From: Nymphaea colorata
Lineage: Eukaryota; Streptophyta; Magnoliopsida; Nymphaeales; Nymphaeaceae
Direction: 5' to 3'
Assembly (NCBI RefSeq): GCF_008831285.2
Contig: NC_045149.1
Location: 22,636,535-22,700,534, forward strand
DNA: 64,000 nucleotides
In this document: piece by piece, positions 14,801-32,568 of the stretch
Layout of the letters: each line of letters starts with the position of its first letter
How positions within the stretch are numbered: position 1 is the first letter of the stretch
Notes under the pieces: model-generated
Told to the model about the DNA's origin: nothing
The model's input: the letters and a program-made list of their open reading frames with translations, nothing else
The model's database searches: none
Position numbers and translations under genes: made by a program

Positions 14801-17800
14801 GATCTACATAATAACTCATAAGTAAGTCATAAGATCCATAACACATCAAAAACCAAGTTTTACGTACAGTATACATCACATCACAAGACAAAATTGTTCA
14901 ATGTTAATGCAAATAACAAATGAAAATAGCTTTGTTCATAATCTTTATCATCTCATTCTCATTTTCATCTTTCGTAGAAGATATAAGCCCTCTTTATCCA
15001 AGAATCAATCATCCATGCATAAATCTACCCTCAAATTGACGATTTCATGGTGAAACAGATTATTCCTTTTGAAAATTGCCACAATCTCCTCCTTCTTCAA
15101 GTATTAGATATGTTCAGAAATGAAGAGGGAGGGAAGTTTTAAAAATTAGTTTGAAAAAGGGTGGTTTTAACCACATATTTTTCAAAATAGACATGTATCG
15201 TGCAATACGGAGTGTATCGCCCTGTATCGTACGACAGGCTGTGTATTGCATGATACATGCGATACACATACAATACACCACCTGTTTGCGATACAGGTGG
15301 TGTATTGTATCGTAAATTTAAAATGAGACGGTACGTATCATATGATACATACAATACTAGTTTCAATGTGAAATAACTTCTTTAAGAAACTAACTTAAAA
15401 TAGTTCTATGTGAATACCTTGTTCAAGAAATTGATTCTGAGGACAACGATGGCTTTTATTAGAACACATAGGCACAAAACAATTCATTTTCCACCATAAG
15501 GGAAAAAATCAGCATATCACCATGTCTCGCGTTCCCACATACCGTATGCTGATTCACAGTTGCCACTTATAAAATTTATTCATCATACTATACTACATAA
15601 ATATCAAACAAAGGCACTTTCCTTAACCATCAGCTTTCATGAACTCAAACGCACGCCATCTATAATTTGATCTTCCTAAGAATCAAGATTAAAACAAATA
15701 GACAATCATCAAATCCCTCCATCCTAGTTACTAAAGAAAAAGACCTGATTAAAGTTTTAAATTGTACACTTGCATCATCATGATACTACTGTTGTTTACT
15801 CTGCTCACAGCATTTAAGCACAAGAAAGCTAGATTAAAACTCCAAGTCTAAGCAAATGCACGGTACAGTTTGTGTGCCTTATTTACATTTTTTGATACAG
15901 AGAGTTAACATTTTTACTGTTAATTGGTGAATGCTAAAAACAAACCTGCATGAAAAGAAGAGGGAAATGCCTATACTAAGCAATTGCCCAAGTGGGCGGC
16001 AACCTAAGCACCTAAGCTTAGAGGCACCTAGGTGGCCCCAAAAGGTGCAATTTTTTCCAATTTTAACTATAAAAATTTTCATGTTTGCCTTGTTCTGTCG
16101 TCTAATCACCAATGCATTAATTGAAATGAAGTTTCAAAAACCCCATTTTGCCCTTTCTTCCTCTTTTTTCTTCTTCTTCCACTCACTCTTTTATTCCTCT
16201 ACCTCTTGTCAAATAGGAATGCCTAAGGCCCAATGAAGCCGTTTTTTTTAGGGGTCTACAAACTAGGTCTGCCTAGTGCTTTTAACCATATATACGATTA
16301 GAAAGAATCATGAGCTTTGACAAAATAGATGTGTGATAAGATGCTCATTAAACATTCACATGTCGAAAATTGATAAATCCATTCCTTTATGCCTTACACA
16401 GTCATGGCATGTACTTTCATAGAAACATCGGATGTACTCACCATTGCTACAAATTTCTGCCACTTCTTGGAATTGTCCTTAAAGGAGACCACAGAAAAAT
16501 CCTTTTCAGTAGAATTCTCCTGAACATTTTGATCCATATTTTTCTTTTTAATCTTTTTACCCATCTCCATCAAGCGCACAGCCTCGATTACGGCTCGCCT
16601 TTGCTGCCCAGTTCCATAAATTGAGAAATCAGGTGTACGTTGAAACCTAATAGTACCAAGAATGTTAGATGGAACATGTGACCACAAGCCGAAAGTAGAA
16701 AACCAACAACCATTTTAGAAAACAGGTATATGTTTGAGACATCCAAATACATCCATACAAAACAAAAAGAAGCCCCTGGGCAGAACTGATGGCATGACCT
16801 TATTACATGACGAAGTAAATATGCAAATTCTAGGGAAAACATCCGACTATGAAGTTAAAGCTTTACTAGATAATGCAAGCTCTAAAAATTAACAATTAGA
16901 CATCCACAACAATGTAGGCTTGATGACAAATAGGGCCAGATTCACCAGGACTGGAAAATGGACTGGTCTAGCCTGACTTTGGATTAGGGTAAGCCCAGCT
17001 TGTCAAATGGCGAGGCCTGACCTGCTGTTATGCAAAACCAGTCCATACACATTCAACTGAAATTTGGACGATGAGCACCCACGTCATGTTGCATTATGTA
17101 GGTGTACAGGACGTTCCTGCAGGGATCATACAACAGATTCTGACATATATGTGCTTGCAGTTATGCACATGGCATGTGTAAATCAATAAGCAATAATTTG
17201 CAATATTATGTTAAATATGTTGTGTGCATACTGTAGAAACAGTAAAAGTGAGAGAACGAGAAACGAACACAGATGTAACGTGGAAAACCCCTCAACTAGA
17301 GGGAAAAAACCACGGGTGAGAAGGACTGGTGCCCACTAGCAACCAGACACTCTCTCTCATAAACTTTCATTCATACCCAAAAATTAGGGTTACAAAGATA
17401 CAAGTAGAGCCTCAACTGGCCTAAACAGAAGCACACACTGGATTGGGTCCCGGCCCAGACCCGTACATTAAAACATGTCAACAATCCCCCTCAAGTTGAG
17501 CATACAGATCAAACATGCCCAACTTGGATACATTTCTCTCAAATGAAGTTGAAGACAAGGCTTTGGTCAGGACATCAGCAGTTTGGTCTTTAGATCTCAT
17601 ATAAGGAAGTACAAGTTCTTTAGCATCAATTCTCTCTCGAATGAAATGCCGGTCAATCTCAACATGCTTTGTTCTGTCTTGAAGCACAGGGTTGTTGGCC
17701 AAGTTGATTGTTGACTTGTTATCACAATACATCTTCATTGGTTCTTCAACTTTTATACCAATATCAGTCAACAATACTTTCAGCCACAAAAGCTCAGAAA

Positions 17801-20800
17801 CTCCCATAGCAACAGCTCTGTATTCTGCTTCAGCACTGGAACGAGAACAAACGTCTTGCCTCTTACTCCTCCACACTATGAGATTCCCTCCTAAATAAAT
17901 ACAATAGCCAGAGGTGGACCTCCTAGTGTCAATACAGCTTGCCCAGTCTGCATCTGAATAACCTTCAATCCCAAGAGTGTCTTGCTTAACATACAGGAGA
18001 CCTTTGCCAAGATTCCACTTCAAGTAGCATAAGATCCTATCGACAGCCTTCAAGTGAGCATCCGTGCGAGCATGCATGAACTGACTCATCACATTCACAG
18101 CGAAGGTAATATCAGGTCTAGTGAGAGTAAGATAAATCAATTTCCCCACAAGACGTTGATATCTTCTCTTGGCCTCTTCATAGAGAGGCTCCCCATCTCT
18201 AAGACTCAGCTTATGGCCAGCATCTAGAGGACTAGAAGCCGGTCTACACCCAAATTTTCCGGTCTCCTTTAACAAATCTAGAGTGTACTTCCGTTGATTT
18301 AGCACAAGGCTAGTACCAGACCTAGCAATTTCAATCCCAAGGAAATATTTCAACTTACCAAGGTCCTTGAGATCAAACTCGATCGCCAATAGTTTCTTTA
18401 ACTTACTTATTTCATCTTCATCATCACATGTGACAATCATATCATCAACATATACCAACAGAATAGTAACTTTTTGCTCATTCCTCTTCACAAAGAGTGT
18501 ATGATCTTCATTCCCTTGATGATATCCATATTGTCTCATTACAAGTCTAAGTCGTTCAAACCATGCTCGAGGAGTTTGTTTGAGCCCATATAGAGCTTTC
18601 CTTAGCTTGCAACATTTTTTAGGTTCCTCATATCCTGGAGGCATACACATATATATTTCCTCTTCAAGGTCTCCATTGAGAAATGCGTTCTTGACATCAA
18701 ATTGGTACATCTTCCACTCCTTTATCACAGCTAAGGATATAATGACTCTGACAGTCTTCATCTTTGCAACGGGAGGAAAGGTCTCCAAGTAGTCGATTCC
18801 ATATTTCTGATTGAACCCCTTGGCAACAAGTCGAGCTTTATATCTATCTATATTCCCATCTAGCTTATACTTAACGGCATAAACCCACTTAGATCCTACC
18901 ATATGAGCGGCTTCAGGAAACTTTACCACATCCCATGTCTTGTTTCTGTTCAAGTCTTCCATCTCTTCCTGCATTGCATAAGTCCACTTGGGATCCCTCT
19001 GAGCCTCAACAACATTCCTAGGAATCACAGCCAAAGAAAGAGAAGATACAAAACATTTGTAGTCATTGCTCAGTCTAGAATGAAACAAAGTTACCAATAG
19101 GATGTTGAGTACATGACCTAACACCCTTTCGCAGGGCGATGGGAAGCTCTTCACTTGCAGCAACAGTCTGAATGTCTTCTTCAACTTGTTTTTCCCAAGC
19201 ATGACTTGGATCATCCAGGGAATGACTAACTCGATTGGAAGTAGAATTCTCACCACCTGTCACCTCATCTGTACAGACTCTTCGCCCAGAGTAAACTTGC
19301 CCAAAACTGTGACAATGTTCCTCCTCAGTCCCAGTAGAACCCCTTTCATCACTACGTTCCTCCTCAGTCCCAGCAGAACCCCTTTCATCACTACGTTCCT
19401 CCTCAGTCCCAGTAGAACCCCTTTCATCAACTGCTTGACTCTCCTCCCGCCTATAGTCCAAGAAATCTGTGAACTGAATATCTTAACTCAGAGAATACTC
19501 TTCCCTTGACATAGACTTCTCTCCTTGAAGAGAATTCTCACCAAATAGGAAGCATGTTCAAGGAAAGTGACATCTTTCGTAACATAGGCACGACCAGTGG
19601 AAGGGTCTCGACACTTGTACCCTTTTTGAGTGGGAGAATAACCTAGAAATATGCCCTTAATAGACCTGGGATCAAGCTTTTTAATATGAGGACTATGATT
19701 GTGAATAAAGCAGACACAACCAAAAACTCTAGGTGGAAGAGAGAAAGGTTCATGACTCCCCAGTAACATAGAATGAGGTGTCTGCCCATTCAAAACCCGA
19801 CTAAGCAGACGGTTGATAAGATACGCACTGGTCAACACAACATCCCCCTAATACTTTTTTGGAACATGACGTTGAAAAAGAAGAGCCCGAGTCATATTCA
19901 ATAACTGGCGATTCTTTCCCCGAGTCATATTCAATAACTGGCGATTCTTTCTTTCAGCAACTCCATTTTGAGGAGGAGTATAACTACATGAAGTCTCATG
20001 AACAATTCCCTTTTTTCGATAGAAATTATCAACAGACTAACACGTATTGAGTTTCCACATAAGTAATCAAAGTTTATATGACAGTAGGAACTTCACTACG
20101 GTCTTTTAGCAAGTAAACAATGGTGTTCCGAGAACAATCATCTATAAAGGTGATAAAATACCGAAAACCATGACAAGAAGGAATTTCCGAAGGCCCCCAC
20201 ACATCAGAATGAATCATAGCAAACACCTCATTAGAACGATGGGTAGACACAGGGTATGAAGCCCTAACATCTAAGTCACAAGGAAACGCCTATTTGGCCC
20301 ACGTATCTATGTCAATACGGGGATATGGGGATACGGGTGCGGATACGGCATGGATACGTTTTGGATCGGGTCTGGATTAGTGTAACGCTCGGCATTTGTA
20401 GGACGGGTCGGGTCAGGGTCCAGACCCAAACTCCACATGCGACAGGAGCCCGACACCGCCCTCTCCTCCCTCGTTTTTCCTTCTCCCTCGTTTCCCCTCT
20501 TCGTCTCTCCCTTAGCCACGACCGCAACTCAGAGAAGAAGAAGAAGGCAACGGCGACGACGACGCTTGGGGTGAGCCCTGTCGTCCCCTTGCCTCTTTGT
20601 CTCTTCTCTCCTCTTCTTCCTTCCTCTCCTCCTCCCTCTTGCGCAGCCCTTCCCCCCCCCCCCCCCCCTTCCGTTTTTTTTTTTGTTGTTGTCGTTTCTC
20701 TCCCCTCTCACTCGCGCCTCTCTCTGTCAGCACCCTCACTCTCCCACCTGCTCTCTCTCTCTCTTCTCTCATGCACTCTCACCCTCACTGGCCTTCTTCC

Positions 20801-23800
20801 CCATTTCTGTCTGAACACCCTCTCTCTGTCTCCCCTTTCTGTCAGCGCCCCTTTCTCTCATTCTTTTCAGCTGCCCACACCACTACCGTGGGCCTCTCCT
20901 AATGACAGATTCCTTTTTGGAACTCCCTTTGGTCGATTTTTGACTCTTTTATGGCCTTTTAAGTCGACTTGCAGCTTGGAGGCGCATATTTCCCCTCATA
21001 CCAGTGGCTGGGATGCATTGGTGGAGGCGGCAATGAGAGGTTTTGGCTGTTTGAAGATCACTTGAACTCGTGAGGTGGCTGCCGGAAGGATTGCAGCAGT
21101 CTAGACTCTTGATTTGGTGTGAGCAAGGCGTAATTGAGCCTATTTTATTGTATATTTTCATTTGGAACACGTATAATTATTGTTTGAGCATGCTAGAAGG
21201 TAGAATTGATGATTTGGGATGCATGTTAGCGACTTTGCTTTTTGGGGAGAGTGTAGGATTATGTTGGAGAAGCGTTGATTCATGTCTATAATGATCATTT
21301 AAGTATGATGGGTTAATTTTCGAAGCAATAGGGAAGCATGGTAGAGATTTGATGTGGGTCAGAAGATTTAGAATCGTTTTGATGAGCATGTGGCACAAGC
21401 TTTTGTCAACGGGCGTATTGCGGTGTTAGTTGGAGAAGAACATGTAAATTGGGTGTATTTGTGGGGAAGACGCTTTAACTATAGAAAGCATTTAAGAATG
21501 TGTTAAGGATGGATTGATCGAAGTATTGGATTTTGATGTTTGGTGGCAACGGCAGGAAGTTGGGAAGTGGCCCATTAGAGGGCTTGTAGGTCGACACTAC
21601 CCGTCGACACCTTCTTGAGGCGATGACATGTGCCTCAATAATTTTGTTTTATATTTGTTTGGATCGATAAACTAATTAGTAGAAATCTTATCTTTTGTTT
21701 TTGTCTGCAGGTACACCGGGCACGTCCCGTCGACCTTGAGCTACCAGATTCGAAGCTCGAGGCATTTTGAAGAGTTTTGTGAGCGCGCCATAGGTATGGC
21801 GGCATTCCAGGCAAATCCTTGCCTGGGCAATTGTGTGAATGTGTGTTCCTAAAATCGTGGGATCCTAGGATTGTGATGTGATTGATGGATTGTTTTGTGG
21901 ATGAATGTGTGTATGCATGCAAATTGTTTGATATATGATATGATTTGTTTTGAAAGGCTATGAGAAGCATGTTTTGAAAATGTTACGCATTTGCATGTGC
22001 ATGCTAGAATTGATAACTGTTTAGGACAGATGAGGTGGGGTATCGAGTCGAGTACCTCCTCGACCCCAATTATGCATTAGAAAGCATCCTAGAATGATAA
22101 TTGTCTAGGACAGATACGAGCCAATCACGGATCGAGACTACTCTTTGTGGTTTGGCTAAGTTTTGAAAGGTGTGACTGATGTGTCTGATTGTGAATGATT
22201 TGTCATGTGACAAGTTCTGTTTTGGAAAGCTATTAGAATCTTGTTTTGAAAACTGTTACGCATTTGCATGTGCATGCTAGGCCTGGGCATCGGGTACCGG
22301 GCCTGTCCACCCAAAATCAGGGCCGGGCCGGGCCGGGTACCGGGCCTGTCCACCCAAAATCAGGCCCGGCCCGCTTCCCCTCCCGTCTCCTGACTCCCTC
22401 CCGGGTAACGTGAGGGGAAGTGTTTCCGGCGAGCCCCCTTCTTCGAGTGCTACGCCGATTAAAGATCAAAAGCAGCAGAAGAGGAAGGATCGACCATGCT
22501 AATCGCGACGGTGTTTAGCATTTTGCATTTGAGGTTGGATTGTAGATCGTGTTTCTATCGTCTCATCAAAATCTTTGGGTTGGAGAACGGAGAAGGTACT
22601 CCGTCTGATCGATTCTAGGGTTTTTCTGCAATTAGATTGAAAGAATCGTGATTTTGGGATTCTTTGGGTGTAAAGATAAAAGGTATTTGTGTTCTTGTTC
22701 GGAATCGTTCCGAAGGTATCATCAAGAAGATGGCCGGCCAGGGTCAGAGGCTCAACATCGTTCCGACGGTGACGATGCTCGAGGTCATGAAGGCCCGCCT
22801 AATCGGTGCCATAGGCCCACGAGGGGCCACGCCATACTCAAAAAGAGGAGCGACACGCCGACGCCCTGACCGTTCAGTTCCGACAGATCCTGAAGAAGAT
22901 GGGCGACATCATGAAGACATCCGCTTTCGCCCTCACAGAGGCCAAGTATGTCGCTGGTAATAATATCAAGCACGTCGTCCTCGAGAACGTTCGATCCGCG
23001 ACGTTGAAGGTAGGGAAAGGGGGAGCGGAGAGGAGAAAGAGGGAGAGGGGGAGCGGAGAGGAGGAGGAAGACTGGAAGAGGGAGTGGCCGAGAGGGGGAA
23101 AGGAAGGAGGGGGAGAGGAGGAGGGAGACAGGAGACGGGAAGGGAGAGAGGGAGAGGAGGAGGGAGAGGGAGACGAGGACAAGAGGAGGGGCCGAGGGGG
23201 AGCGCCGAGCGAGAGGGCGAGGCGGAGCCCGAAGTCGGGCCGGGCCGGGCCGCCACTGGGCCCGCCTATCCGGCCAGGGCCCGGGCCAGCCCGGCGGCGG
23301 CCCGACCCGACGCCCAGCCCTAGTGCATGCTAGAATTGATAACTGCTTAGGACAGATGAGGTGGGGTATCGAGTCGAGTGTCTCCTCGACCCCGATTGTG
23401 CACTAGAGGTGTAACGCTCTTTATTTTTTTTTGGGCAGGTCGGGTCAGGACCCAGATCCGGACCCGCAGCTTACCCGCGGGAGAGCCCGACGAGGACTGT
23501 TCTCCCTCGTCCTCATCTCGCTCTCCCCCTTTTCGTTGTCGTTCTTGCCGCTAGGGAGATCCACGCAGAGAAGAAGAAGACGAAGACGGGGGAGGTGCCG
23601 GCGACGACGGGGGAGGTGCCGGCGACAACGGCAGCTGAGGCGGTGGCGCTTGGGTAAAACTCTCTCCCTCTCTCGTTCTTTGTTTCCCTTCTCCGCCACT
23701 CTCATGTTCCTTTGCCCTCCCTACCGAATGCTTTCTCTCTCTTCCTCTCCCTTGCCCCTCTCTTTCCCCCTTTCCGATAGCCCTCTCCTGCACGGTCCCT

Positions 23801-26800
23801 CTCCTTACTCTCCCACCGACTCTCTCTTCTCTCTCGTCCTCTCCCCTCACTGCCCTTCTTCCCTTTTTCTGTCTGAACCTCTCTCTCTTTGTCTTCCCTT
23901 GCCTCACGTACCCTAAGTGAGCTCGTTCTCCCCTTTTTTTTTTCTAATTGTTTTTCCCCTTATCCCAATCGAGCACTCCCTCACGGTTTTCAGCTTTGTT
24001 TGTTAGGATTCTAGCTTGGGAAACGTGTTTTTCCCCTCCTAGCAGCGAGTAGGCAGTGTTGGTGGTGGAGGTTTAGCACGATTTTTGTCGTTCGGGGACC
24101 GATTGATCGCTTGAGGTGACTGTTGGAGGCGTTGCAGCAGTTCAGATTCTTGATTTAGGGTGAGCGAGACCTAATCAAGCCCAAATTATTGAATATTATC
24201 TTTTAGAGCATGTATAATTATTGTTTGTGCATGCTAGGGCTTAGAATTGATGTTTTGGGATGCATGTTAGCGATTTTGCTTTTGGGGAGAATGTGGGGTT
24301 ATGATGGAGACGCGATGATTCATGTGTTTGTTGATCTTTTAAGCATGATGAGTTGATTTTCGAAGTAATAGGGAAGCATGGTAGCGTTTGTATGGCTGTG
24401 GGGAAGATTTAGGACGGTTTTGGTGAGCGTGTAGCACACGTTCTGGTGAACGAGTGCGTCTTGGAGTTAAACAGGGAAAGCGTACGTAAGTTGGATGTGC
24501 CTTTGGGGTTGAATCCTTGATTAAGAAAAAGAAAGTTTGGAGAAAGGCGTTTGTGATAGATGGATTGATGGCTTTGAGTTTTGACTTTTGTTGGCACGGC
24601 TAGAAGTTGGGAAGTGGCCTAGTAGAGGGCTTGAAGGTCGACACTACCCGTCGACACCCTCTTGAGGCGACGACACGTGCCTCAAGGATTTTATTTTGTA
24701 TTTGTTCATTTTTGTTTGAATTGTGTAGGTATTTAGTAGAAACCTTATTCTTGTTTATGTTTGCAGGTACGCCGGGCACATCCCGTCGACCTTGAGTTCG
24801 AAGCTTGCGGCATTTTGAAGAATTTGGTGAGCGCGCCACAGGTATGGCGACATTCCAGGCAAATCCCTGCCTGGGGCAAATGTGTGATTGTGTGCTCATA
24901 GGATCAAGGGATCCTAGGATTGTGATGTTAATTGATTGACTGCTTTCTGAATGAGTATATGTATGTTGCTTATATGATTGAATGGGTTAGAAAGATTATT
25001 AGTCTTTTGTTTTGAAAATGTTACGCATTGGCATGTGCATGCTAGAATTGATATCTGTTTAGGACAGATGAGGCGGGGTATCGAGTCGAGTGTCTCCTCG
25101 ACCCCAATTGTGCATTAGAAAGCATCATAGAATGATAACTGCATAGGACAGCTACGAGCCAACCGCAGATCGAGACTACTCTCTGTAGATTGGCTAAGTT
25201 TTTCAAAGAGGTGATTGACGTGATTGATGTGATGATTGATGTGATTATTGATATGAATGTGTATGTTGTTGCAGATGCATTGCCATGGGCAACGATGCAA
25301 ATTGATGAATTAGAGGGTAGTTGTACCCGTACTGTATGACGGCCAGCAATGACTGTTACTATATGTATAGACCTCGTGTGGAGGCATTGAGAGGTGTAAG
25401 TGCACTCGTAGGGTGTATTAACCTCATGTGCTAGCCAGTCATCTTGTGAATGAGTAATGATAATGATAAAAAAAAAACGAAAGGATAAGAGATGAGAGGC
25501 CAGTGGGATGTGGCTGTGTGTTTGGGAGACGTCTCGTTCTCGCCACTGGTCTCACCTATCAGAGCGCAGGCGGTGCAAGGCCCCAGGGTTCTGTTGTGTG
25601 TTGTGCTTGGAGCGTTGGGCTCCCGCCTTCCCAACCTGGGTGTCCTAGGAAAGGCTGAGTATCTCACTTTGGACTTCACACATCCAGGGATGAGTGCTCT
25701 ACCGCTGCAGCGGGTGAAATGGATCCATACTGTTATGGGCCACCACGGGGGTTGTCTCTCGGCTGTAGGCCACCCGCGGTGTGCACGTGCCTGTGTTGCA
25801 CCCACAGGAACTGTTAATGCACTAAAGTTAATGAAAATGTAATGTGTTTGATAGAATGCATGTGACTGACGTATATGTGATTGATATGAATGCAAGTGTT
25901 ATGTTTAAGCATGCTTCGCATGTGACTGATGTTGTGTTAGTGTGGCCATCAAGTGGCTTTTACATGTCGTACTCTGACACGACATGACGATAGATGGGTT
26001 GATATTTGTTCTTTTATTTGAGCCTTACTTGAGAGGGTTTGGCATTTTCCTGGCTTGTTGCCAAACTGCGAAGGCTGAGCCTTCAGTTGTTTTCTTTTTC
26101 AGGTTTTGGCGGACCCGGGGCAACAGGTTGAGCAGATGGCTTCACTCACGTCCTACTGGGGAGATTTTGGGATTGTCGTTTGTAGTGCCGGCGCGTCATG
26201 TTTTGGTTTTATTGATGTCTTCTTTTTGTTAGGCATCAATGTTATGATTTTGGGGCATTTTGGTCATGCACATAGATGTGAATTTGTATGAAACAAAATG
26301 GTTATATAAATGAAAGTTCGCCCCATTCTTTTGAATTGTTTGGCTCATCGTCTTTTTGAATTGTTGGGTAGTCACACCTCGATGCTTTATGTTTAGAAAA
26401 AAAAAAAAGTTTGTGGGTTAAAAGGTCGTGGTGTTACAAGAGGGCATCATAGAATGATAATTGCATAGGACAGCTACGAGCCATCACGGATCGAGACTAC
26501 TCTCCGGGATTTGGCCAAGTTTTGAAAGATCTGATTGATGTGTTTGATAAGATGTGAATGTTGTGATTTGTTGCATATGTATTGCGGTGGACAATAATGC
26601 AATTGATTGAAATTGGAGGGTAGTTGTACCCGTATTGTATGACGGCTAGCTATGACTGTTAACGTTATGTGTAGACCTCGTGTGGAGGCAATTGGAGGTG
26701 TGGGTGCACTCGTGAAGTATGTACCAATCTCATGAGCTAGCCAGTCATTTTGTGAATGTGCAATTATAATGATAATAATGAAAGAATAAGAGATGAGAGG

Positions 26801-29800
26801 CCAGTGAGATGTGGCTATGTGTTAGGGAGACGTCCCGCTTTCGCCACTGGTCTTGCCTGTTCGGAGCGCAGGCGGTGCAAGGCCCCAGAGTACTGCTGTG
26901 TGTTGTGCTTGGAGCGTTGGGCTCCCGCCTTCCCAACCTGGGTGTCCTAGGGAAGGCTGAGTACCTCTCTATGGAATTCACACACCCATAGATGAGTGCT
27001 CTACCGCTGCAGCGGATGAATGGATCCATACCGTTATGGGCCACCACGGGGGTTGTCTCTCGGCTATGAGCCGCCCATGGTGTGCACGTGTCTGTGTTTG
27101 CACCCACAGGAACTATCAATTTACTAAAGCTAATGAAAATGAATGTATGTGAATGAAATGTGTGTGGACAAATGTATGTGATTGATGGGCATGTAAATGC
27201 TATGACTGAAATAAAATGTTTAATCATGTCTTGCATGTGATTGAGATTGTGTAAATGTGGCCCTTGAGTGGCCTTTTCATGTCGTGGTCTATGATAGGGG
27301 TTTTCTTGGCAAATGATGTGCCTATGCCCTGACACGACATGACGATAGATTGTTTTTATGATTGTTCTCAGATTTGAGCCCTACCTAAGAGGGTTTGGGA
27401 TTTTCCTGGCTTGTTGTCATACTGCGAAGGCTAAGCCTTCAGTTGTTTCTTTTTCAGGTTTTGGCGGACCGGAGCAGCAGGTTGATCAGATGGCTTCACT
27501 CACATCCCACTGGGGAGGTTTTGGGTCTTTGGTAGTGCCAGCGCGTCATGGTTTGGTCTTTTTTATCTTATTTTTGTCAGGCATCAAAGTTGTGGTTTGG
27601 GACATTTTTGTCATACACATAGATGTGATTTTGTATAAATTGAAATTGTTATATAAATAAAAGTTTGCCCCATGGTTTCAAATGACATAGCTCCCTTTTT
27701 TTTTGAATTGTTGTGTAGTCGCACCTCAATGCTTTATGTTTAGAAAAAAAAAATTGTTTGAGGGTCAAAGGTTGAGGTGTGACAATTAGACCCGATCTGA
27801 ACAAAAAAAAAACAGATTTTAAGTTAAGTTGAGCTCTTCTCCCTTTCTCTTTGGGGTTTTTTTTTTCTGTTTTTCTGATAAATGACTAGAATGATGATAT
27901 TGATAGACAATGTTTTGTGATAAACAATGTTTTGTTTGTGACTTTAATAGTGAACTATTAATTTAATGTTTTTTTTATTTATAGTTTTTTATAATATTAT
28001 ATTTGCCGTATCCGCGTATCCGAGAATTGTGAAAATTGCCGTGTCTGTACCCGTATCATCGTATCAGCACCCGTGTGACTTAGCCTAACATGTTTGGCCA
28101 GGTGACGGACATCACAAGACACCATAGTCATATCTAACCTGGAACACAGATCAGGAAATAACTGTCTCAGAATTCCAAAGGGAAGGTGTCCAAGGCGCTC
28201 ATGCCGACACAGAATCGATTGAAGGGAGTCCTCTCTACTCTTCGATGTTTTGCTGGCAGGTGTCATGAGGGCAGTAGCGGCACGCATAGGTAAACGATAT
28301 AGCCCTTCAGAAAACATACCAATCTCAATCCTCTTCCATGTCACCAAGTCCTGCAGAACACAGCGATCAGCAGAAAAAATAAGTTCACAATTCAACTCTT
28401 TTGTAATCTTGCTAACCGACAAGAGGTTCAAGGGAAGATGAGGAACATGTAGAGCATTGTAGACTAAGAACTTGTTCAAAAGTGAGAGACTCTCTTTTCG
28501 AGCCACAGAGATAGAGGAACCATCGGCAAGAGACACACGTTCCTTTCCTGACAAAAGCTTATACCCATGAAAGACCTTAGGATCGCCAGTCATGTGGTGA
28601 GTAGCACCACTATCAATAATCCACTCGCCCATACGAGAATCTACCATCACGAAATATCACTAAAATAGCAATAAAGGCTGGAAGCGTGAAACAAATGGTG
28701 GCCAACTGCTAGAAGGAAGAAGACAGCTCCACACACAACAAAAAACGACCAACACGAGCGACGGCAGCAGCGGCAATCGCAGCACGGAGGCGATGAAGGC
28801 AACACTAGACCACCATCGAAACTTCACGGTGGCAGCGAACAGTCCTAGACTACCAACGGTAATAGGGAACAGCAGAAACACCACCAAAACTCACGGCAGT
28901 AGAGGATGAGCAGCAACCGATGTGCAAAAATGCAGAAACACGGGAGGGAGACCCGTCAGACGCAGAGCGGACGACAAAGGGCGAAGCAGACAGTATCACC
29001 GGCGGCGCTGCACAGATAGAACAAGCAGCTCTGGAGGAAACCGGCGACGCTGGTGGCGTAGAATGAAAGAGGCTGCAGACGCTGGGGACAACAGCCAGAC
29101 GACGCAGCTGAAGATCCAAGGCGTGAGAGCACTGGGACCGTCGGGAGAAGTCCTCAGGCGCAACTCAGCTTCAGGCTTGTCGGAGAGGGCTTCACTTGAA
29201 AATTCGTATAAAATCGTAGACACCTCCAAAAATTCTGAAATTTGGACCACAGCAACAGCACGAGCCAAGGAGTGGACGCTCCAAATTTGGGCTGAATCCG
29301 AGCAGTCTACGCTCAGGTCGTTGAGCCTTGAAGTCGCAGGTTGTCTGTCGCCTGCTTCAAGAAGACGCCACCGATTTCCGCCAGATTCCGTCCGTCGCCT
29401 CCAGAAACGCCATCTGTGGTCCAATCGACGTCAAACTTGGTGGAGAGGATCACCTGGATGTTAGGAATCGAATGGCACCGGAATCATCAAAATCCAACGG
29501 TCCAATCGCAGGAAAAGTCACCGAAAACAGGGTTGGGAAGCGATCAAAATCAAAACCCCCAAAAGTTACAGCCGATTGAGCCCTCGATTGAAGCTCAGAC
29601 AGAAACAAGCTTAGTGTTAAAACTGGGTATACAGAATATGGCACGATCGTCTCAAACGGCCCTCAAATCGGTTCTCCTTCGATCAAATCCGCTGGTAGGT
29701 CATCCACAAGCCGATGGTGAAGGAGCTCGCACAGCAAACCGGCAAGAGTCGACGGTGTCCACCGGAACTTCACGGCGGCAGACGATCACCACTCAAACGG

Positions 29801-32568
29801 TGATCCAATACGAGCACAAACAAGAAACTCAGAACCAACCTGGCTCTGATACCATGTAGAAACAGTAAAAGCGAGAGAACGAGAAACGGACACAGATGTA
29901 ACGTGGAAAACCCCTCAACTAGAGGGAAAAAACCACGGGTGAGGAGGACCGGTGCCCACTAGCAACCAGACACTCTCTCTCATAAACTTTCATTCATACC
30001 CAAAAATTAGGGTTACAAAGATACAAGTAGAGCCTCAATAGGCCTAAACAGGAGCACACACTGGACCGGGTCCAGACCCAGACCCGTACATTAAAACACG
30101 TCAACACATACAATAGGAATAATACACATAAGTTTCAGCAAAATACAATTAGAGCCACTATATTTGGAAAATGTAGCAACAGGAACATATTTACATAAAC
30201 TAATATGACTCAAATAAGGGAATATCATCATAGTTATATTTAAAAATCAAATGTGGAACTATCAGGCCATTTATCAACATGCATAGGTTCATGTAGTGTG
30301 GTCAAAGATGAGATTTACAGTTAGAAAATTTTTTAAAATAAAAAAAGGAAAATAAGAGGAACGTACTTCTCAGCATGTGCACGGCAAAGCTGCAAACAAA
30401 GTGAATGGAATGTGCAGATTGTGAGTTCTTTAGCAATAGACTTTCCTGCAAAGGTTCCTATTCTCTCCCTCATTTCTGACGCAGCAGCTGTTGTAAAAGT
30501 CATTGCCAGTATGTTGGATGGAGCAATTCCCTGTAAACGAAGATACCAAGAAAAAGGAAAAATAGAAAAATAGACAAGAATTGTGAAAATCTCAGCGATT
30601 TGTCAAACATAAGGATGAACTGTTACTTGCCTCCTTCAAGAGCATCAATACACGGCCAACAATTGTTGATGTCTGAAATGCCAAACAAAGAGATCTAAGA
30701 ACTACAGAAACATAAGACAACAGATAATTACAAGTAACAAGTGAAGTCTGAGGCAACAATCTAGGTGTTCAGAGATTCACTTATACAAGGGAAGCTTAAT
30801 GACAAAGTCAAACCTTTCCACTCCCTGGCCCTGCAACAATCATCAAAGGGACTGTAATATTACTAGTGGCAGCCTCCCTTTGCATGTCATTTAGCGTTTG
30901 AAAATATCTAGAAAACGAGTCATCTGTGGATTGATTTTGATTAGCCATGAAACATGGCTCTTCCAAAGAGCTATCAGAAGAAACACATTTGGAGGACACA
31001 GTCCATTCGCAGGCAGAGGCCACAATCTGTGCACCAGTAGTTTGTCTAACATCATCTGCAGTAAGCTCGTGTGCCAAAATCTCAGGCTCCTCTTTTACCA
31101 AGTCAGGTAGAGTCTCGATACCTTTTTCAGGTACATCCTGAGCAGAGGCACGTACATGGGTATCTTGAAGAAGCAACCAAGTTTTGGTACTCATATCACT
31201 CGTATCAGTGGAACCATGATTAATAACACTTTGTGGCCTAAAGGGGCTAGCATAAGGATCCATGGATTGCTCAACGCAACCATTTTGTATGGCTGCTCTG
31301 AATTCAGGTCCTTCCAAATATTTCTGTCCAAGAATTGTATCAATTTCTTGCAAAAATAAATCATCAAAATCTTCCATTGGTGAATTCAAAGGAGTCAAAT
31401 TATTTCCAGAATCTTGTGAAGAGTCTTTTGAAGAAACACATGAATATGGAGAATCAATAGTTGGAACTGTCCTTGGAACTTCCTCAGATTTTTTTGTTTC
31501 CTTGAGGTTATCATGAATTGAGGATTTATTGCAGGGGATTAACCATGTTCCAGGCTGGGACACTCCAAAGTTGGTATGTGATGACAATCTTGGATTTCCT
31601 AATTTTGGCTTGCATGTATTTGCCTCCATTTCTTGGAAAGGAACTCTATTGACTTCAAATAGCTTGTGTGGCACACTGCTCTTGCATCTTCTACAAAAAG
31701 AAACTTGCTTCAGCTGTGAAAAGCAACTAAAAATTGCAAATCAAACAGAAAATATGCATAATTTCAGCACATCAATGGAGTGGATTGGAATTTGGAAACA
31801 TAACATATCCAAACACATTCAGAACTGGCTATATATGGAGCAAAGAGGCACACAATTTTCAAAGAACATTCAATTCCAACATCTGAAATGATTTGTGTGG
31901 CACTGCATTTCATAAGATATGGCTAAATGTAGGTAAGACCATGGCCTAATTCAATGAGTTTAATAAATAATTTTGTTGAAGTCAAAATTTGGATTAGTTA
32001 ATGAATTTTTAATGTGCAGTTAATGTCAAAACATGTGATCCTTATTTCCCCTCTTCCTTCTTCTAGTCATTACCTTAGAATCATATTGAGAAATTATGGT
32101 TTGTTTGGCCACGACCTATCAGTCTTCGCTTGTGATAGCCTCCAAGGCTATCGACCAACTGGTGCATGAATGAAGATGAAGGGAACGAGAGGGAGAGAAA
32201 TCAAGAGAGAGAACAAAACATCATAATAATTTCCATTAGGGCTAATCATACCTAAAAAGGATTACAGCATAAAGCAAAGTGGGTCCTTACTAAGGTCCCG
32301 ATCCAAACTGACTGAACATAACTGGTTCCTAATAAACCCAAACATAACGTAAAACAAACATAACATAAAACAATGATAACAAAACCTAAACTAAAACAGA
32401 ACCTAACAGCTTAGCACCTCAGATCAAAGTCACTGAAGCTATCATGTGTAGAAAGAGCTCACAAGCTCCTTCACTCAAATTGGCTTGTGCCGAGCTCTCC
32501 TCCATGGTGATGGATTGACACAGTGAGTTTTAAAACACTGCATCCCGCAAATGGCAACATTGAATTGT

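Follow-up and report, generated by a model that had tools for sequence, protein, structure and literature searches.

A 13,720-bp intron of an SRS2-like/UvrD helicase gene in Nymphaea colorata holds five transposable element (TE) insertions, nested up to four deep. The intron has likely grown by successive insertions, and two of the five elements have likely been trimmed to solo LTRs; we assign this reading a probability of about 0.9. The locus lies in a 64,000-nucleotide stretch of DNA (the window), of which an earlier model-made account from the letters alone (the sequence-only reading) had described the cluster. Its observation was confirmed to the base, whereas its interpretation was only partly supported, with depth, order, and meaning corrected. 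The five levels it reported are reached only if the host intron is counted as a level; the elements themselves are four deep.

Boundaries and architecture of the nest

The element ends were defined independently of the target-site duplications: by the copia LTR pair, by the bases with which LTRs A and B both begin and end, and by terminal inverted repeats in the two DNA elements. A perfect duplication was present at all five boundary pairs tested, each at the place originally described (Table 1). Two random 5-mers in the window agree with a probability of 0.00144 and two random 8-mers with a probability of 3.5e-5, so five matching duplications by chance are not credible and this explanation was rejected. 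The net lengths of the elements and their duplications together amount to 12,880 bp, which leaves a remainder of 840 bp in the intron, and the lengths close exactly. Growth of the intron from 0.84 to 13.7 kb by insertions is therefore likely as far as the nesting and the arithmetic go, but the 840 bp is the present-day remainder and not a measured ancestral length.

Table 1. Coordinates of the helicase exons, the intron, the nested elements, and their target-site duplications in the window
Feature	Position	Strand	Details
Helicase exon before intron	30367..30530	-	ends HAEK, phase 2, donor GTACGT
Helicase exon after intron	16442..16646	-	acceptor ...TTAG; starts by completing K, then FQRTPDF
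Intron	16647..30366	-	13,720 bp, GT...AG; begins GTACGT, ends TTAG
Copia element	17232..30106	-	same strand as gene; 5,054 bp net of inserts
Copia 5' LTR	29855..30106	-	252 bp
Copia 3' LTR	17232..17483	-	252 bp; 95.2% identical to 5' LTR
Likely primer-binding site TGGTATCAGAGCCAGGTT	29837..29854	-	adjoins 5' LTR
Copia pol piece, Pol_BBD	27997..28656	-	E 2e-15, plus weak pre-integrase match; stops at MITE insertion point
Copia integrase-core piece	20077..20268	-	weak rve match; other side of MITE
Copia pol piece with SH3_retrovirus domain	19491..19847	-	
Copia reverse transcriptase piece, RVT_2	17478..19259	-	E 9e-69
MITE	20271..28083	.	404 bp net; pieces 20271-20380 and 27790-28083, plus ATTAG duplication
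LTR A	20381..27784	+	3,317 bp net; pieces 20381-22277, 23331-23409, and 26444-27784 (duplications apart)
LTR B	23410..26438	+	3,029 bp; same family as A
Gene-carrying hAT (Pack-hAT-like)	22278..23322	+	1,045 bp; ends TAGGCCTGGGC / TAGGGCTGGGC
Captured 5' coding part of V-ATPase subunit D	22730..23011	+	frameshifted, 7 codons short
CATAC duplication (copia)	17227-17231 / 30107-30111		
CCTAACAT duplication (MITE)	20263-20270 / 28084-28091		
ATTAG duplication (LTR A)	20376-20380 / 27785-27789		
GTGCATGC duplication (gene-carrying hAT)	22270-22277 / 23323-23330		
AGAGG duplication (LTR B)	23405-23409 / 26439-26443		

The host helicase gene

When joined, the two exons that flank the intron form a single open frame, and the exon limits, the GT...AG ends, and the frame were all correct as first described. 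The 123-residue protein encoded by the joined exons was identified as a UvrD-type helicase by matches to nine distinct PDB sequences at an E-value of 0.01 or better, and the PcrA and UvrD structures match residues 2–71 or more, across the exon junction at residue 55. When the exon translations were concatenated into a 694-residue query, the top hit among 120 listed proteins was an SRS2-like helicase from Nymphaea thermarum (85% over the whole query), followed by a protein matching at 66% over 57%. Placed on the window, the N. thermarum protein matches the two exons flanking the intron at 94.7% and 91.8%. Its residues 849–1013 had no match in the 64-kb window, so the gene extends beyond the left end of the window. 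The other gaps between neighbouring matches of this protein to helicase exons reach only about 3.9 kb, making the nested intron much the longest seen in this gene. The limits set for the other exons are approximate, several of them being off by one to three bases. The standard splice sites and the open, conserved flanking exons suggest that splicing still removes the whole intron, cluster included. Lying on the gene's own strand, the copia element could terminate helicase transcripts early.

Two further observations concern the gene outside the nest. A 14-residue exon at 30631–30672, with a likely GC donor (GAG/GCAAGT), completes the Walker A motif; it is present in the Tasmannia protein and missing from the N. 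thermarum protein, suggesting that the N. thermarum gene model skipped it. At 3–1798, a second copia-like sequence lies on the opposite strand, with 70.6% identity over 1.5 kb to the reverse transcriptase side of the nested copia and a 53-bp LTR-like match at 1749–1798. It probably lies within, or past, a further intron of the helicase gene.

The copia element and the MITE

The outermost element has the two LTRs, TG...CA ends, and 5-bp duplication of a Ty1/copia element, and its pol domains follow the Ty1/copia order on the minus strand, from integrase (weak rve match) through SH3_retrovirus to RVT_2. The motif next to its 5' LTR is likely a primer-binding site of the initiator tRNA-Met type. 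The MITE cuts the integrase in two. On one side, the pre-integrase match runs to the last of the 67 positions of its profile, at about 28090; on the far side, in the piece that begins at 20268, the integrase-core match sets in at residue 15. Both matches are under the Pfam curated cut-offs. A 51-residue read across the joined flanks of the MITE site is open in one of three frames and matched no Pfam family. A gag gene was looked for in the copia leader, in 8 of the 18 minus-strand frames of at least 25 amino acids listed between 28600 and 29854 (those scanned being 54–144 amino acids long), and no gag family was found, the only matches being two weak ones (E 0.06 and 0.027) that look like chance. 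By its missing gag in the scanned frames, this copia is a defective or non-autonomous copy and not an autonomous one, and it may belong to a non-autonomous line. The pol region also contains a 39-bp unit in three tandem copies (19312–19429), and the stretch between the primer-binding site and the protease (28640–29854), without gag in the scanned frames, spans about 1.2 kb.

The element inserted in the copia pol region was identified as a MITE by its 8-bp duplication, its terminal inverted repeats (CTAAGTCACA at both ends), and its short length. Past the first bases its arms pair only out of register, with a local score of 43 compared to a maximum of 32 in 200 shuffles. It had been called hAT-type, which agrees with the hAT length of the duplication but not with the ends, as these read CTAAG...CTTAG and the usual hAT terminal motif is C/TAGNG. 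The label draws on the 8-bp duplication only, and the superfamily of the MITE is left unassigned here.

LTRs A and B

Each of the three pieces of A matches B, with the order kept. Identity at ungapped sites is 70%, 92%, and 85% in pieces of 1,773, 87, and 1,279 sites, corresponding to K2P divergences of 0.39, 0.09, and 0.17. Judging by these matches, A and B are copies of one LTR family, which may resemble the LTRs of Ty3/gypsy elements. A contains an internal tandem repeat with a spacing of 272–273 bp (21908–22280) and B is without it; the other tandem copy in A and the sequence of B both show the sites hit by the hAT and by B in uninterrupted form.

Both sequences have the TG...CA ends and 5-bp duplications of an LTR and no coding body, as a solo LTR does. 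A Pfam search with two antisense frames, taken one each from A and B, yielded nothing beyond a chance-like match (E 0.47). Read against the three frames of B, the longest antisense frame in A (26745–27380) runs into 2, 9, and 7 stops, and the substitutions between the two are spread evenly over its codon positions (27, 32, and 27). With the long antisense frames not conserved between A and B and no family matched, a hidden protein in either was rejected. A and B are thus likely solo LTRs on the strength of their ends, their duplications, and the lack of coding domains in the scanned frames, as had been proposed, although the window contains no full-length relative of either in a self-search. 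If they are solo LTRs, two longer elements once stood here and lost their bodies, and the intron has probably shrunk as well as grown. The insertions are as legible as the sequence-only reading held, but its clean record of intron growth would then be a record of growth together with two deletions.

The gene-carrying hAT

The second element inside A had been described as a gene-capturing hAT, and this was borne out by hAT-type ends, an 8-bp duplication, and the start of V-ATPase subunit D inside it. The ends are alike at 10 of 11 positions and, together with the duplication, are those of a Pack-TYPE element, as is the combination of a captured coding sequence with no transposase in the two frames scanned against Pfam. 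One of these two frames gave ATP-synt_D at an E-value of 0.07, under the cut-off, and the other gave nothing. The captured fragment was identified as V-ATPase subunit D by phmmer (E 9e-31) and by a protein search in which the best 3 of 120 proteins came from Nymphaea colorata, N. thermarum, and Victoria cruziana. Leaving aside the frameshifted part and a gap of 7 residues, it departs from the N. colorata protein at 4 of 78 positions. As the fragment lies in two frames, it is unable to encode an intact V-ATPase subunit D. The pattern of the hAT ends had no second occurrence in the 64-kb window.

Order and age of the insertions

The nesting fixes the order of insertion as copia first, the MITE second, and A third, with B and the hAT arriving after A. 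These last two occupy separate, non-overlapping places within A, so their order relative to each other is not fixed; the claim that nesting determines the order therefore holds from copia to the inner pair but not between these two siblings. As the nesting shows, the helicase intron received the copia element, the copia pol region received the MITE, and the MITE received LTR element A, into which LTR element B and the gene-carrying hAT were inserted. Recombination between their own LTRs likely reduced A and B to solo LTRs.

Comparison of the two copia LTRs shows 12 differences in 252 sites (K2P 0.050 ± 0.015). At substitution rates of 1.3e-8, 7e-9, and 5e-9, this divergence gives ages of 1.9, 3.6, and 5.0 million years (0.8 to 7.9 million years when two errors are allowed on either side), suggesting that the outer copia layer is 2–5 million years old with a wide error. 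These figures are no hard ceiling because gene conversion may make the copia LTR age too young, as the accessible text of one article describes for many plants, where about a quarter of nested elements also appear older than their host elements (PMC7251063). A and B exceed the copia LTR divergence in two of their three pieces and so did not diverge in place, their split predating their arrival. Dating A and B against each other was accordingly abandoned, as the comparison of pieces dates the split of the family and not the insertions. We regard it as a tentative proposal, somewhat short of even odds, that within roughly the last 2–5 million years the intron gained five insertions of four families, and two element bodies were removed through LTR recombination, while the helicase frame was kept.

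Alternative explanations

The cluster might be, wholly or partly, an assembly artefact in which repeats were misjoined inside the intron, as it is known from one assembly only and as A, B, and the copia LTRs are repeats prone to misjoining. We consider this very improbable: misjoins would not yield five perfect duplications exactly at the element ends, the window contains no N, and the repeats are distinguishable, as the copia LTRs show 12 differences in 252 sites and far more separate A from B. A different possibility accepts the nest but has A and B as complete non-coding elements of another kind that share TG...CA ends, consistent with their length, since 3 kb is long for an LTR, and with the fact that no full-length element with such LTRs was seen. 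The ends combined with 5-bp duplications, and the lack of a conserved reading frame, argue instead for solo LTRs, and we consider the non-coding elements rather unlikely.

The nesting itself could also reflect targeting and not chance, with the TE DNA of the intron acting as a favoured landing site. All four later insertions lie in TE DNA, and B entered a relative of its own family, a kind of nesting reported for Ty3/gypsy elements in the accessible text of a survey (PMC6911290). If, however, each insertion chose its place uniformly over the intron as it stood at that step, four of four would fall in TE DNA with a probability of 0.62–0.63. A landing preference is therefore not required, and we consider targeting improbable. 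Successive insertion, with likely loss of the A and B bodies, is the preferred reading.

Significance and comparison with known systems

Without recourse to a clock, the locus fixes the relative order of four growth steps of one intron, and it does so in the water lilies, close to the base of the flowering plants. Every layer predicts an empty site in related accessions, which would make rates of intron gain and LTR loss measurable at one gene; if the reading of recent growth and shrinkage is true, living relatives could be checked for the empty site that belongs to each step. The locus would also make it possible to ask how well a gene copes with a 13-kb copia that sits in an intron and runs in the gene's own direction. 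A literature search, with most subscription papers outside its scope, found no paper on this locus, which is weak evidence.

Nested LTR retrotransposons are known from maize. They are common in plants according to the accessible text of a survey of 12 genomes that found 1491 nested pairs, in which LTRs are not commonly targeted by nested elements (PMC6911290). The present nest resembles those in its insertions into older elements and in an insertion within the same family (B in A), but differs in that a single intron brings together copia, a MITE, two LTRs, and a hAT and, counter to the survey trend, in that B sits in an LTR, perhaps one that was solo by then (PMC6911290). The single LTR with a duplication and no body is as described for solo LTRs arising from LTR-LTR recombination, whereas here two of one family occur with one inside the other (PMC7251063).

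TE-expanded introns are described, in the accessible text, for grapevine (PMC3058033) and for heterochromatic introns of rice (PMC7145194). Like those, the helicase intron was lengthened mainly by LTR elements and the gene looks intact; unlike those, it is a single locus known from sequence alone in which each layer can be read (PMC3058033, PMC7145194). Pack-hATs have been described in maize in an article whose accessible text does not mention Nymphaea, and the element found here shares with them hAT-type ends, an 8-bp duplication, a captured coding fragment, and a length of about 1 kb, but is seen here in one copy and carries a frameshifted fragment of V-ATPase subunit D (PMC8903248). Nested elements, TE-grown introns, and Pack-hATs are thus already known in plants; the process is ordinary, and the record of it at this locus is unusually clean.
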